Shown: positions 16,443 through 32,831 of the stretch, piece by piece | Layout of the letters: each line of letters begins with the position of its first letter | Numbering within the stretch: the stretch's first letter is position 1 | Source: Bacteroidota bacterium | Lineage (GTDB): Bacteria; Bacteroidota; Ignavibacteria; Kryptoniales; JAKASW01 | Direction: 5' to 3' | Assembly: GCA_021789975.1 (NCBI GenBank) | Contig: JAJYIT010000028.1 | Location: 1-54,440, forward strand | Length of the DNA: 54,440 bases | Program-made: the position numbers and the translations under genes | The notes under the pieces: model-generated | Seen by the model: the letters and a program-made list of their open reading frames with translations, nothing else | Told to the model about the DNA's origin: nothing | Database searches by the model: none

Positions 16443-19409
16443 TTACTGCGCAAAATTCCACCTTAGCCCAACATCAGCAGATAATCCGTAAGATTCATCA
16501 CTATTCGGGAAACCAGTCCCCTGGATAACTGTTATGTCGGGCTCGCCATTGAGATTATTTATGTCGAGATAGGCTTGAAGCCCATACCATGGAAGGTTCT
16601 GCATTGCTGAAAAATCCAACCGCGAGTATGTCGCTCTGCGCTGACGGAGGGAAGGCCAGAAGTTGTTCTGGCTGAAGACATTTTCCTGGTATATCCACGA
16701 AACTCTCGCAGAGAAACCTTTGTAGTCATATCCCACCGAGAGGTTCACGATGTTGCTTGGCTGATCTATCAGACGGTCCGTGTAGAAGGTATCGACGTAC
16801 ACAATAGTTGTGTGAGGATATCCCCCCTTTTTCTCGGTCAGCTGGAACGGATACTTAGCGCCCGAGAAGATGTGGGTGTAATTAACATTCAATACCAGTC
16901 CACTCAAGCCGAACGGCAAATACCAGAAATGAGTTTGCCAATTCGCCTCAATACCCCAGAGATTGACACGGTACGGATCGTTGATCACCAGGTTGCCAAG
17001 CGCATAACCTTTCATGTAATCGGGAAAGCCGTATTGGGAAGGGTTTGTGATATAGACCGCATCGCCATACGGAAATATCAAATCATCAATTTGTTTCAGA
17101 AACGGATCGATCGTTAACAATCCCAGGCTGTTGTTGTAAAACGACATGGCAATATCATAGTTCTGCGACCTGCCGGGCTTCAAGGCTTGATTATTCCAGT
17201 TGACAGATCTGACAAAAATGTCAATCGCCGGTGTGATTCTGTTGAAATCAGGGTATGTGAGAGTGTTTGTATATGCAAGCCTGATGTCAAACCAATCGAA
17301 CGGCTTGTACCGCAAGCTCACATCCGGCAGCCAGTAGCCGTGATACTGCGTTGAGGTTGAATCTGTGTATGGAAAACTAAATGGGAAAGTATTGTTGTCA
17401 TAGGCGGTCGGGACGTACGCTGCCGTGTACCGGGTCCGAAGGCCTTGATAACGAACGCCGGGTATGAGGGTAATCCGCGGACCGAAGTTTATGGTTGCCA
17501 TCACGTATGCAGCCTCCTCGTCTTCATATCCCAAATAGTTGCTTGCTATGTTTCCATATTCATCAGGAACGTACGCTCCGGATACTGCAGCGAAACTCTG
17601 CTGATTCTGCAGCGCCACAGTTGTGTTTACAATCTTCGAAAGGACACTGAGGTTCGTAGGGTAACCAGATAGCAGATAGTCGCCTCCGAGAAATTTACCG
17701 AAGCTACTCGATTGATCGAAGAACAGGGGCATAAGGAAAAGGTCGTCGCCATTCGGGTTCAGATTGTAAGGAGGCTGAGCCAACCAGGGATCAGCCGCTA
17801 TGATTTGCGAGCGAGCCGCATTTCCGCCAGGGATATTATACGTACCGCTGCCGCTCGAGTAAGTGTAAGACCTGAACGTATGTCGATAGGCTCCGCCAAA
17901 CTTGAGCGTCGCGGTTAGGAAGTCCGAAAAATTAAAGCTTCGTTGAAAGTCGATTGAACCCGATAGGTTCCTTTGCCGCGTAAAGCTAGTATTGGTACTG
18001 ATGGTAGTGAGAAATGTTTCGTTCAAATCCGTTTTTGCAGATGCCTGTTGAGCAATTGCCTCAGGACTCTGCGATAGGGGAAGACTTCCAATACCGGATG
18101 CGAGTTGGCTGAAGTTGACGCTCCAGTAACCGGGGTTCACGTTCTCTGAATAAGCATGTGATACCCTCGCATCCATGGTAAACGACAGAACATGTTGTTT
18201 ATAGTCCAGGATATTCATTATGACATTTGCAATCGGCGCAAAGTAGGCTCCAGAATAGTTTGTAGAATTGCCGCTCAAACCGTAGCTCTGGTTGAAAGTC
18301 TTCGTTATCTGCCTGCCCTGACTCAGGAAATTCATCAGATCCACTTTTCCGGAAGACCACCTGTAATCAAGTACCAGCGTTCCATCATAAAGATTCTTCT
18401 CGGTCGGCTTATAAGTTAGATTCAGACTGTTCATAATCACTGTCGGATGGGGATTATAGTAGTCGTAACTATTAAGCAACCCGTAACTCCCGCCAAATAT
18501 ATCAGCCGTAAGATTCTGTCTTTGAGTGAGAGCCTGTGCGAATACTCCGAACCGATTGTCAAAAAATCTCTTCTCTACCGATCCGGAGAATTCATAGTCG
18601 CCCAGGGTGTTCTGGAGGTTGTTGTACCCTCCCTGGGTTTCGAGTTGTATTATAGGAGCGCCGCTGGGAGTCGAACGGGCCTCTCTGATCTTAAAATTTA
18701 CAGTCCCTCCGAGTACTGCCGCGTCCATGTCCGGCGTGACCGTTTTAAAAAGCTCTATGCCGCTCAACATATAAGACGATATCATGCTCATATCGACCGA
18801 CCGATTTGAGCTTGAGTTCGAAGGCATCTCCACTCCATCGATCTCAATCTGGTTATACTTCGGCTCAAGCCCGCGGATGGCGACCTGCGATCCCTCGCCG
18901 TAGGACCTTACAAGAAAGACGCCCGGAAGTCTGCCGACCGACTCAGCAGCGTTTGCATCGGGCAACTCGTGTATGCGTGCGGCTGATACCACATTGACCA
19001 CGTTGTCTGAAGAGAGTTCCTGGTTGATAGCGGCGTTCTGACCGCTGGCTTGTGCGGTAACAGTCACTCCTTTACTCCGCACTCCGACTGCGATCAGTTT
19101 AACGTCAAGGGTGACGCTCTCTCCCTCGCCGACTCCGACCGGTACTTGCTTGAGATCGTAGCCGACGTAACTTACCTTCAATGTATCCTGCCCGGCAGGG
19201 GCATTCGGAATGGAGAAACGCCCATGAAGATCCGTCGAAGCCCCCACGCTTGTTCCCTTCACGAGGACGTTAGCGCCCGGAAGGGTTTGTCCTGTCTCAG
19301 AGTCTGTCACTTTTCCTGAAATGGTCCCCACCGCCTGACACCGTGCTGTCTGCACGCTGAAGAGGACACTCGTGAGAGCGAGCAACCAAAGATGTTTCAT
19401 TGGCCACAT
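16443..19409 (-). CDS. TonB-dependent outer-membrane receptor with carboxypeptidase-like N-terminal domain
   Basis: About 988 residues. After a signal peptide (LWLLALTSVLFSVQTARCQ) comes a CarboxypepD_reg-like domain (GTISGKVTDSETGQTLPGAN...STDLHGRFSIPNAPAG). The plug domain contains LPDANAAESVGRLPGVFLVR and VAIRGLEPKYNQIEIDGVEM, a pattern seen in the TIGR01782 (Xanthomonas/Caulobacter-type) receptors rather than SusC. A 22-strand barrel follows, ending GLSADVGLRWNFAQ. It takes up a large ligand, probably an oligosaccharide, across the outer membrane using TonB energy. ATG 19409 and ATG 19400 both lie just after a purine stretch; upstream codons to 19586 are not protein-like. No SusD lipoprotein lies next to it. 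It heads the transcript that continues into the beta-helix, GH79, DUF6259 and GH92 genes. Confidence 0.93.
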   Translation of the reverse strand: MWPMKHLWLLALTSVLFSVQTARCQAVGTISGKVTDSETGQTLPGANVLVKGTSVGASTDLHGRFSIPNAPAGQDTLKVSYVGYDLKQVPVGVGEGESVTLDVKLIAVGVRSKGVTVTAQASGQNAAINQELSSDNVVNVVSAARIHELPDANAAESVGRLPGVFLVRSYGEGSQVAIRGLEPKYNQIEIDGVEMPSNSSSNRSVDMSMISSYMLSGIELFKTVTPDMDAAVLGGTVNFKIREARSTPSGAPIIQLETQGGYNNLQNTLGDYEFSGSVEKRFFDNRFGVFAQALTQRQNLTADIFGGSYGLLNSYDYYNPHPTVIMNSLNLTYKPTEKNLYDGTLVLDYRWSSGKVDLMNFLSQGRQITKTFNQSYGLSGNSTNYSGAYFAPIANVIMNILDYKQHVLSFTMDARVSHAYSENVNPGYWSVNFSQLASGIGSLPLSQSPEAIAQQASAKTDLNETFLTTISTNTSFTRQRNLSGSIDFQRSFNFSDFLTATLKFGGAYRHTFRSYTYSSGSGTYNIPGGNAARSQIIAADPWLAQPPYNLNPNGDDLFLMPLFFDQSSSFGKFLGGDYLLSGYPTNLSVLSKIVNTTVALQNQQSFAAVSGAYVPDEYGNIASNYLGYEDEEAAYVMATINFGPRITLIPGVRYQGLRTRYTAAYVPTAYDNNTFPFSFPYTDSTSTQYHGYWLPDVSLRYKPFDWFDIRLAYTNTLTYPDFNRITPAIDIFVRSVNWNNQALKPGRSQNYDIAMSFYNNSLGLLTIDPFLKQIDDLIFPYGDAVYITNPSQYGFPDYMKGYALGNLVINDPYRVNLWGIEANWQTHFWYLPFGLSGLVLNVNYTHIFSGAKYPFQLTEKKGGYPHTTIVYVDTFYTDRLIDQPSNIVNLSVGYDYKGFSARVSWIYQENVFSQNNFWPSLRQRRATYSRLDFSAMQNLPWYGLQAYLDINNLNGEPDITVIQGTGFPNSDESYGLSADVGLRWNFAQ

Positions 19410-19864: not shown

Positions 19865-19891
19865 CACAGCTTCGCCTTCTGAGTCACATTG
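19865..19891. repeat. 27-base motif, copy A of a repeated regulatory element
   Basis: The 27 bases starting CACAGCTTCGCC and ending AGTCACATTG match the stretch at 32531-32557 at 25 positions. The match is flanked by weaker similarity (ACCGG...TT...CAC before it). Both copies lie in long untranslated regions upstream of operons on the minus strand, downstream of a TGTAT..ATACA palindrome. The function is unknown. Confidence 0.6.
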
Positions 19892-19990
19892 CACAGGGCG
19901 GCTCCTCCTACTTACCGGACCTTCATCGTGATGCCAGCAATCTCATGCACCATGAAACGTCCTTTTCCGCAACGGTTAGAGCCAATACAA

Positions 19991-20001
19991 TGTATTATAC
20001 A
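19991..20001. promoter_or_regulatory. TGTATTATACA palindrome, candidate GntR-type operator or promoter
   Basis: An 11-base palindrome with one central base, flanked by CAATACA on one side and CAATGTAA on the other. The same flanks in the same order surround the palindrome ATTGTATACAAT at 32731-32742. The form fits the TTGTATACAA-like operators bound by FCD-type GntR regulators. The minus-strand TATAAT inside it could also be a -10 element. Confidence 0.45.
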
Positions 20002-20130
20002 ATTCCGCACTCAATGTAACACCCTTCCAACGAATGTGTCAAGCCCGCTTCTGCCATTCGGTGAGCGCTATACACTAGTAGCAATTCTTTCATATCCCAT
20101 CATGCCGTCCAGAATTCAGCCGGTTGACTT

Positions 20131-21252: not shown

Positions 21253-22554
21253 CTATTTTATCATCAAAATCTTTTGGACGCCCGCAAACGAACCTGCCTT
21301 CATCACAACCAGATACACACCGCTGGCGTACTTTGAGCCGCTGAATTGAACCTGGTAACGACCGGGAGGTTGAACCCCGTTCACCAGAGTTGCCACTTCG
21401 TTCCCCAAGATGTCGAAGACTTTGATCGTGATATGGGATGTCTTGGGTAAATCATATCGAACCACTGTCGCCGGTATCATATCGTCCACGCATTTGATAC
21501 CCACGCAGTTCACGGGTGAGCGTGGTGGCCGTGACATACGGAAGTTTCGGAATCAGATTGGAGTTGACGATGTTAAAACTTGGATTGCCGCCGGTCCAAT
21601 CATACCAGATAGAGAGAGGAATACCGTCATACAGGTTGAACAGTTGTATTCTCGCGAGGTAGTCCGCCTGTGTTTGAATTGATAACGAGCTGTTGCTATA
21701 TCCCCATTCGCTGCAGACAATCGGGATGCTCTTTCCCGCGGGCTCATATAGTGTGATCAGACTATCGAGCCAGTGGTAGCCACGATCATTTGGTGTCGAT
21801 GTTGGCGTGTAGTACGGAGCTGTCTCCGGGTAAAGGTCACCCCTGTAGGGATGAACGCTGACGCCGTCGAGATAATTGATCACACCGGAAGTCATGACCG
21901 AATCCAACAGATCTGACGGGAATCTGTCCGCTGCCGGTCCGATTATTGTTGCCTTGGGTCTGCCTGGCGTATTGCCTTACAAGCTGCAAGCGCCATAGTT
22001 GCATACTGTGCAGCACTCGGTGAAGGCTTCCAGAACGAACCATTGTTGGGTTCATTCCAGATCTCCCAGATGATATGATTCCCTTCGAAGTGCTTCACAG
22101 TTGCTGCGGCCCATCTGCAATATGCATCTATGTCCGTCGAGTCGGCGGGGCCCGTGTCGACACTTGCTCCCGGGCTCAAGTACAATGGATTGTTGTAATC
22201 TAATATCAGGATTGCACGCAGTCCGCGCTGATTGAGATTGGATATGAGTTGATCATAAGCCAACCAATCATAAGTTCCTCTGGCAGTCTCAATGGACGAC
22301 CAGATGCAATCCATCAGGATAAACTTGAAGCCGGCTGCCGCTATCATATCGAGATCTTGAGTATGGCCGGTCGTAAAGTGGATGTTGATTCCGACACCGC
22401 CGGGAATCACGGGCTGCGGAATTTCGGAAGAACCTGTTTGCGCAATGGATAAATTGCTGATGAGTGCAATGAGAGCAATTATCAAAATCGATCTCAGAAA
22501 AGCTCCCGCAATTGAATCCGTCAGGAAGATGACAGGTGAAGTTTTAATTGACAT
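21253..22554 (-). pseudogene. Broken clan GH-A glycosidase (cellulase/GH39-like) with T9SS tail
   Basis: Three consecutive reading-frame pieces belong to one ancestral gene. Piece 1 (21943-22554) has a signal peptide, then GVGINIHFTTGHTQDLDMIA and the acid/base motif IIWEIWNEPNNGSFWKP. Around 21945-21950 the frame shifts by one base (after RQADP; the next frame continues ATIIGPAADRFPSDLLDSVM). Piece 2 (21452 to about 21945) carries VSVHPYRGD and the nucleophile motif PIVCSEWGYS. Piece 3 (21253 to about 21480) is a T9SS tail lacking its NPFNP start (TVVRYDLPKTSHITIKVFDI, ILGNEVATLV, ending QKILMIK). The join between pieces 2 and 3 changes frame again and has lost the linker, so a deletion occurred there. 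Both catalytic Glu residues survive, but no intact protein can be made. A sequencing error could explain the first shift, not the second. Confidence 0.85.
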
Positions 22555-31581: not shown

Positions 31582-32301
31582 CTATAAAGAGAAAGAACTC
31601 CTGACGAAAGATTCAAACTTCGCATCAAGGTCAGATTGAGGCAAAAGCAATTCTTTGGTCTTGACAAGATGGATGTGCATTGCCTGTTCCGCCCTATCCG
31701 GATCGTGATCGCTCAACGCAGCTATGATTTCTTTATGTTCCGCGATTGTTGTATTCATCCTTCCCGGCTTATGTCCCGATATGAATCTGATTCTGTGGAT
31801 TTGCCCCAGCAGATTATTCAATAGCCTTCTGGCTCTTGCATTACCGGCCGCCACCATAATGAGATCATGAAGCCTGGTATCTGCTTCAAATGAGATAATG
31901 CTGTCCTGCTTCTCGATTGCGACGTCGAGTTGTCTTCCTATCTCTCTAAGCTGTTCCATCTGTTCCTCAGTTATCTTCGAAGCAGCAGATCTTGCCGCAG
32001 CACTCTCGAGACATATCCTGAGATCGAGTACCTCTTCTATGTCTCTCGGTGTGAGTTCAGAGACATAGACTCCAACATTCGGGACAATCTTTACTAAGTC
32101 TTCTTGTTCCAAGCGTCTCAGCATCTCCCTGATCGGGGTCCTGCTGATACCGTATTTCTGTGCCAGTTCATCTTCCCTTACTGTCTGTCCAGGCTTTAGA
32201 TGCTGGGAAATGATGTCGGCCCTTAGGGATTGAAATATCTTGTCCTTAATTCTGAGACGTTCCGACCCCGTCGCAGCCTGTTTCTTTTCTTTCGATTTCA
32301 T
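31582..32301 (-). CDS. GntR-family regulator, FCD (FadR/VanR-like) type
   Basis: 239 residues. The N-terminal winged helix contains QTVREDELAQKYGISRTPIR and EMLRRLEQEDLV. The C-terminal FCD domain is all-helical with the metal/effector-binding pattern (DLRICLESAAARSA, EADTRLHDLIMVAAGNAR, TTIAEHKEIIAAL, where Asp and His ligands occur). FCD regulators usually sense carboxylic acids or sugar acids and repress the operon they head. It is the first gene of the catabolic operon running down to the aldolase. A TTGTATACAA-type palindrome lies about 430 bases upstream, and a related one lies upstream of the TonB-receptor operon. An AAAGGG site precedes the ATG. Confidence 0.92.
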   Translation of the reverse strand: MKSKEKKQAATGSERLRIKDKIFQSLRADIISQHLKPGQTVREDELAQKYGISRTPIREMLRRLEQEDLVKIVPNVGVYVSELTPRDIEEVLDLRICLESAAARSAASKITEEQMEQLREIGRQLDVAIEKQDSIISFEADTRLHDLIMVAAGNARARRLLNNLLGQIHRIRFISGHKPGRMNTTIAEHKEIIAALSDHDPDRAEQAMHIHLVKTKELLLPQSDLDAKFESFVRSSFSL

Positions 32302-32530: not shown

Positions 32531-32557
32531 CACAGCTTCGCCATCTCAGTCACATTG
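32531..32557. repeat. 27-base motif, copy B of a repeated regulatory element
   Basis: Matches 19865-19891 at 25 of 27 positions (CACAGCTTCGCC start, AGTCACATTG end). It lies 230 bases upstream of the gntR start. The two copies are 12.7 kb apart, each in a long untranslated region with a related palindrome further upstream. Confidence 0.6.
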
Positions 32558-32730
32558 TTTCCTCGCGACCGCAAAGAATGCAGACAAAAGCATGCGCAAC
32601 TACCAAGGTATTCCTAAGACCTTTAAACCCTTTTCCTCATTCCAAAATGAAATCCGTTTCAGTCAAATCTCTTTCCATGGCAGTATCGCCTTTTCAGAAT
32701 TCCAGGCGCAATTGCAATACATGGTGTTAT

Positions 32731-32742
32731 ATTGTATACAAT
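32731..32742. promoter_or_regulatory. ATTGTATACAAT palindrome, candidate GntR/FCD operator
   Basis: A perfect 12-base palindrome of the form recognised by many FadR/VanR-type GntR proteins. The flanks CAATACA (left) and CAATGTAA (right) recur around the TGTATTATACA site at 19991-20001. The distance to the gntR start is about 430 bases. Confidence 0.5.
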
Positions 32743-32831
32743 TACAGATACAATGTAAGATGTTTGTTACTTATTTGTCAAGGTTTCTTTGAATTAGACG
32801 GTGGGATTTTCATTAAGCAAAAGAGAGAGTG

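Follow-up and report, generated by a model that had tools for sequence, protein, structure and literature searches.

A 24-nt leader element of Bacteroidota as a candidate UpxY-loading site downstream of predicted GntR-controlled promoters

Two operons for the uptake and breakdown of sugars on the minus strand of the window (the whole 54,440-nt stretch of Bacteroidota DNA that was analyzed) begin with similar leaders, one ahead of gntR and the other ahead of a gene for a TonB-dependent receptor. The features named in an earlier note were found where it had placed them or at most one base away. In the GntR locus, the palindrome ATTGTATACAAT (32731-32742) is flanked by CAATACA (32715-32721) and CAATGTAA (32751-32758). 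In the TonB locus, the operator-like TGTATTATACA (19991-20001), an imperfect form of the GntR palindrome, has CAATACA at 19983-19989 and CAATGTAA at 20012-20019. The 27-mers at 32531-32557 and 19865-19891 (both minus strand) are identical at 25 of 27 positions, with zero matches expected from 100 shuffles. Although this 27-base motif is present in both leaders, as first described, the conserved unit is 24 nt, a sharply bounded element, TGKGACTGAGRTGGCGAAGCTGTG, at 32531-32554 (TGTGACTGAGATGGCGAAGCTGTG) and 19865-19888 (TGTGACTCAGAAGGCGAAGCTGTG) on the minus strand.

The CAATGTAA flank is the complement of the -10 region (TTACATTG) of a promoter common to both loci, and read in the direction of transcription the two loci share one order: a TTGACA-N18-TACATT promoter (32752-32781 and 20013-20042, minus strand), a TTGTATA-type palindrome approximately at the transcription start expected from that promoter, the 24-nt element, and the first gene. 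The element lies about 215 nt into the GntR leader and about 140 nt into the TonB leader. The first genes are gntR (31582-32301, minus strand; GntR HTH and FCD domains), at the head of a predicted operon of ~12 kb, and the receptor gene (16443-19400, minus strand, with the start placed at 19400; CarboxypepD_reg, Plug, and barrel domains), heading a predicted operon of ~17 kb, both operon extents being deduced from gene order. Elsewhere in the window, a GH5-like gene at 21452-22554 (minus strand) is seemingly split into two ORFs, one of 203 amino acids with a partial Cellulase match and one of 151 amino acids with no Pfam match, possibly through a frameshift or as a pseudogene.

When the 4.7-Mb genome was searched with the promoter-operator pattern TTACATTG-N7-AATTGTATA, exact matches were obtained at the two window loci only, and the next-best matches, with three mismatches, were no commoner than in the reversed control. 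Close gntR homologues were present in several congeneric genomes, four of which (G002, G003, G006, and G007) retain an exact TTGTATACAA and keep the 24-mer in the gntR leader with one to two mismatches to the 22-nt search core. Alignment of these four orthologous leaders revealed the conserved islands CTTGACA, TAyATTG, TTGTATACAA, and GTGASTSAGWTGGCGAAGCTGT in otherwise diverged sequence; more distant gntR homologues, found in another context, had neither TTGTATACAA nor the 24-mer. As in known FCD-GntR operators, the palindrome is conserved at the promoter of the operon that encodes the regulator (TTGTATACAA is identical in loci L160 to L164), and ATTGTATACAAT is probably the operator of the FCD-GntR protein encoded downstream. 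It had been proposed that one regulator links uptake to catabolism, and a single regulator for both operons appears reasonable, given that the palindrome and the -35 and -10 sequences are kept in the four orthologs and that the layout recurs only at the TonB operon. The promoter-operator module was absent upstream of the TonB-receptor homologues examined in congeners (the closest ones), and so the link between uptake and catabolism via the GntR module looks specific to the window species. One TonB-receptor homologue (G005) had a 24-mer with three mismatches 190 nt upstream. The GntR leaders of three congeners (L162 to L164) share a second conserved stretch, TTGTATATTTATtGGGATACG, ~100 nt past the element, which is absent from the window leader and is possibly an auxiliary operator.

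The 24-mer itself is found well beyond this pair of operons. A logo built from 90 nonredundant sites, TG[T/G]GACTGAG[G/A]TGGCGAAGCTGTG, has information near zero on both flanks, and the leading TG (positions -2 and -1) was not included in the search queries, yet it is conserved in 85 and 88 of the 90 sites, respectively. Variants across sites include GAGRTGGCG, GACGTGGCG, and GAAAGGGCG. The window genome harbors 10 copies (4.7 Mb; control, 0), and 11 of the 13 genomes of the genus, the window's included, carry the element at 1 to 10 copies each. Across 84,980 prokaryotic genomes, the exact 22-nt pattern was identified at 41 loci, where by our own arithmetic about 0.2 matches would be expected by chance. 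All 41 are in Bacteroidota, among them Chitinophagaceae, Bacteroidales, Marinilabiliales, and a 'Candidatus Kryptoniota' genome of the window's own genus, besides others. For genus f28/g70, presumably Bacteroides, no element was found among the matches listed at up to two mismatches. Nearly all nonredundant scorable sites (54 of 57) precede the next gene and point in its direction, with a median of 124 nt between the two (P = 4e-13); two further sites lie inside large ORFs. These data support the earlier view of the second motif as a transcribed leader element, with the transcription start taken from the promoter, and like an ops element it occupies the leader in one orientation.

Two clusters of sites have features of their own. 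In G008, the elements of L027 and L036 share an additional upstream block of ~60 nt (GCGCGAATGGCGAAG...GCGCCACTGGGTCCGATG) containing GGCGAAG-like pieces. In Paraflavitalea sp. CAU 1676, three exact elements with related flanks (L053, L061, and L078) are found on a single contig (contig 3), and the genes that follow them are not polysaccharide-like. A reading of the element as a small peptide (GTG/ATG-GCG-AAG-CTG) was rejected, because several copies lack the ATG or GTG and the reading frame that follows is unconserved.

Several copies per genome, together with three close copies in ~1.1 kb of mostly non-coding DNA at L041:922-1997, two of them degenerate with three mismatches, might point to a scattered mobile or repeat sequence that has nothing to do with regulation. 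This is scarcely credible for an element that occurs 1 to 10 times per genome, is nearly always intergenic and co-oriented, has identical boundaries across families, and is retained in diverged orthologous leaders; hundreds of dispersed copies, which the earlier note had named as an outcome that would refute its own regulatory reading, were not seen in the genome scan, which gave 10.

The 10 sites of the window genome lie ahead of operons of mixed function. Two of them, in the window, lead into the GntR/2-hydroxyacid-dehydrogenase/aldehyde-dehydrogenase/GH2 operon and the TonB/GH92 operon. Contig C25 has a site at a second GntR operon, C17 has sites at a carboxypeptidase-regulatory-domain/FlgD_ig/PorV-like operon and a PhyH/SDR operon, C50 has sites at a LacI/aldolase-SDR operon and a RhaT/RhaA (rhamnose) operon, C83 has one at an RraA-like/GlcNAc-epimerase operon, and C79 and C22 have sites at polysaccharide-type genes. 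Copies are paired 8 to 13 kb apart on C17, C50, and C84. This distribution contradicts the notion that the motif is part of one GntR module serving only the uptake and catabolic operons. Both window loci and the GntR-operon orthologs do combine palindrome, promoter, and motif, but eight more copies lie at LacI, rhamnose, PhyH/SDR, RraA-like, polysaccharide, and other TonB-type operons, and the paralogous copy of the window GntR operon (G000:C25; L083) keeps the element and has lost the palindrome. A GntR-specific two-operon module is accordingly a highly improbable account of the 24-mer.

UpxY is an antiterminator and a relative of Escherichia coli RfaH, and it is to genes of this family that the element is linked. 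A NusG-paralog ORF starts co-oriented and within about 620 nt downstream of the element in 16 of the 41 scan loci, with Wza-like and other polysaccharide genes around it, and upxY stands at the head of a polysaccharide operon in many Chitinophagaceae loci. Within the window's genus, a UpxY gene is located just before the element in five genomes (G006, G008, G009, G011, and G012), and in G004 a single site with three mismatches lies about 480 nt past the UpxY gene. The window genome encodes exactly one NusG paralog besides the housekeeping NusG (contig C35; L113:1222-1794, minus strand). Its score of 126.5 bits against NCBIfam NF033644 (antiterm_UpxY) is above the cutoff of 100, and its scores against RfaH (57.7; cutoff, 144.5), LoaP (43.2; cutoff, 125), and NusG (23.8; cutoff, 135.7) are below theirs; the sequence of the paralog also weakly resembles those of solved NusG and RfaH structures. 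This upxY follows a Wzc-like gene, and no element was found near it.

In a 296-genome sample of the phylum, at least two NusG genes were present in 24 of 25 motif-bearing and 133 of 271 motif-free genomes (P = 1.3e-6); this association is corrected for phylogeny only in part. Second NusGs are uncommon in family f30, in which one was found in all three motif-bearing genomes versus 3 of 32 motif-free genomes. The match in the single motif-bearing exception resembles a chance one (GCGAACC in the core). G005 (90% completeness) has motifs and only one NusG match. As approximately half of the motif-free genomes have two NusG genes, UpxY can exist without this sequence. Two further observations concern UpxY loci. 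A NusG-domain fragment with two in-frame stops, at G012:C31:11629-11817 (L126), lies ~2 kb from the intact UpxY gene and appears to be a decaying duplicate. At nine loci (L042, L046, L055, L058, L064, L066, L071, L072, and L076), the gene for a conserved protein of ~176 amino acids (MLEALISSKTRIKILLKFFLN...SYLRGLEEEFGES...) ends 40 to 90 nt before the element. This protein has a winged-helix-like N terminus and no Pfam match (L042 copy tested), and it is possibly a companion regulator of UpxY polysaccharide loci.

The two halves of the element have different properties. The last 12 nt, GGCGAAGCTGTG (32531-32542, minus strand, at the GntR operon), fit the elemental pause consensus with TG at positions 11 and 12 and form a putative pause site with an ops-like core. 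The 12-nt ops sequence GGCGGTAGCGTG has the same pause-consensus register, likewise with TG at positions 11 and 12 (PMC5995543). Of the motif shuffles, 0.4% gave a complete match to the pause consensus that lay exactly at the 3' edge. Ungapped identity to ops is 7 of 12, a value that shuffles reach often (61% anywhere in the motif), and so this resemblance alone proves nothing. The RfaH ops core GGCGGTAG is absent, the element having GGCGAAGC instead, and for this reason we describe the element as one that would work like ops in a UpxY setting and not as an RfaH ops. ViennaRNA with DNA parameters predicted a non-template DNA hairpin for ops and none for GGCGAAGCTGTG, within which GC-GAA-GC could pair. 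No intrinsic terminator was found between the element and gntR, and one weak candidate was found beyond the TonB element.

The 5' half, TGKGACTGAG, would instead take part in RNA structure. Excess folding was detected only where the folded segment spans the immediate upstream region and the 5' half of the motif (z of -1.1 to -1.2; P of about 1e-8 to 1e-9). With the motif held fixed, the 5' half pairs better with its own upstream 43 nt than with shuffled versions (z of -0.75 +/- 0.14), and better with its own than with swapped upstream regions (permutation P = 0.0004); pairing controls of three kinds were null, and the 3' half showed no pairing with the upstream region beyond controls. At sites where G replaces C at position 3 or T at position 0 of the motif, compensating changes are seen in the upstream arm (P = 0.007 and P = 0.0004, respectively), as would be expected of a nascent-RNA hairpin with a variable loop. 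The pairing is stronger outside the genus (mean z of -1.0) than inside (about -0.4). In the window, a 5' hairpin arm pairing with TGTGACTGAG is predicted at 32555-32597 (minus strand) of the GntR site (z of -2.5), the covariation being seen at the level of the group, and no hairpin is predicted at the TonB site (z of 0.08). The 3' arm of the predicted hairpin ends about 12 to 13 nt behind the putative paused RNA end, a spacing deduced from the sequence.

There are two other explanations. In the first, the 24-mer is an ordinary double-stranded operator from which a transcription factor represses or activates from within the leader. A conserved 24-bp block with unconserved flanks, at 10 operons of mixed function, is compatible with such a site, but the element is nonpalindromic, strictly oriented, and 140 to 215 nt downstream of a conserved promoter; it is linked to NusG-paralog genes and not to an HTH gene, and its 5' half covaries with an upstream arm whose position floats, a feature that would be superfluous for a rigid protein site. 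We regard an operator as unlikely. In the second, the element acts purely at the RNA level, as an attenuator, a small-RNA target, or an RNA-protein site, and is not read by a NusG paralog. Although it is transcribed and has a covarying upstream partner, Rfam searches of the window and of the GntR leader gave no match at the element, the 3' half lacks such a partner, and the UpxY linkage would be left unexplained; a purely RNA-level role is therefore very unlikely.

The 24-mer is most likely a pause and antiterminator-loading site, because it recurs at unrelated operons, throughout the phylum, and in linkage with a NusG paralog. We propose, with a probability of roughly 0.8, that each window locus is under two-stage control by a GntR-controlled promoter and a UpxY-type ops-like element. 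In the first stage, whether transcription starts would be decided at a sigma70-type promoter whose start site carries a GntR/FCD operator, presumably in response to a sugar signal. In the second, the 24-nt element in the leader would work like E. coli ops: its 3' half would pause RNA polymerase and display the non-template strand, and its 5' half would probably serve as the 3' arm of a hairpin that the nascent RNA forms behind the paused end. The UpxY-family NusG paralog encoded on C35 would bind this paused complex and may then stay on RNA polymerase and allow readthrough of the long operon. We give even odds to a broader proposal, in which Bacteroidota UpxYs outside Bacteroides share a 24-nt loading code of ancestral origin, made up of an RNA pause hairpin and an ops-like core. 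The single orphan UpxY of this uncultured lineage would then have turned into a global regulator akin to RfaH, jointly controlling operons for sugar-acid and rhamnose catabolism, TonB uptake, and polysaccharides at a step that follows the action of their individual repressors.

UpxY and ops biology is already known for capsules; new here are the phylum-wide shared sequence and the trans-acting sugar-catabolic and TonB regulon, and the exact novelty of the sequence is uncertain. A literature search with the core sequence gave a single paper, on an unrelated subject. A concrete 24-nt sequence in many Bacteroidota families is directly testable and allows UpxY regulons to be predicted from genome data, and its distribution suggests that these regulons may reach past capsules into carbohydrate catabolism and TonB uptake.

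Like ops of the RfaH system in gammaproteobacteria (PMC5995543, PMC7819879), the element is short, oriented, located in the leader, and consistent with a consensus pause with TG at positions 11 and 12 of a 12-nt core, and a NusG paralog would likewise act in trans on several long operons. It differs in that GGCGAAGCTGTG matches GGCGGTAGCGTG at 7 of 12 positions and conservation here runs 12 nt further upstream. In addition, the paralog is of the UpxY family, and RNA pairing of the 5' half is supported by covariation.

Bacteroides UpxYs, the subject of Chatzidaki-Livanis et al. (2009, 2010) and Saba et al. (2024), are locus specific and encoded inside their own capsule operon. Saba et al. reportedly found that UpxY recognizes a paused polymerase by way of the non-template strand and the upstream duplex, with nascent RNA hairpins assisting, and for Bacteroides capsules the question of how operons are found was answered in part in 2024. 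For non-RfaH NusG paralogs in general, operon recognition has been described as an open question (PMC7593976, PMC12691694). Contact of UpxY with upstream duplex DNA, as cited in PMC12691694, would fit a 24-nt rather than a 12-nt element. The protein family (NCBIfam) and the leader-located action are shared with the capsule systems, whereas here there is one orphan UpxY for 10 sites, mostly at sugar-catabolic or TonB operons. Judged from its gene content, the 10-site set would be a regulon controlled in trans and consisting mainly of catabolic operons, which sets it apart from the role in cis at capsule loci described for Bacteroides UpxY (PMC7593976, PMC7819879).

LoaP of Bacillus (PMC12691694) is also a NusG paralog that acts at a leader element of long operons, but it uses an RNA hairpin with no discernible pause, and the window paralog scores far below the LoaP cutoff (43 versus 125 bits). 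Hairpin-stabilized (his-type) pauses resemble the predicted arrangement in having an RNA hairpin arm that ends 12 to 13 nt upstream of the paused RNA end; here the spacing is read from the DNA and the hairpin is coupled to a conserved ops-like core. Finally, autoregulated promoters of FCD-type GntR proteins likewise have a palindrome at the start site of an operon beginning with gntR, whereas the leader described here carries a second, elongation-level element.
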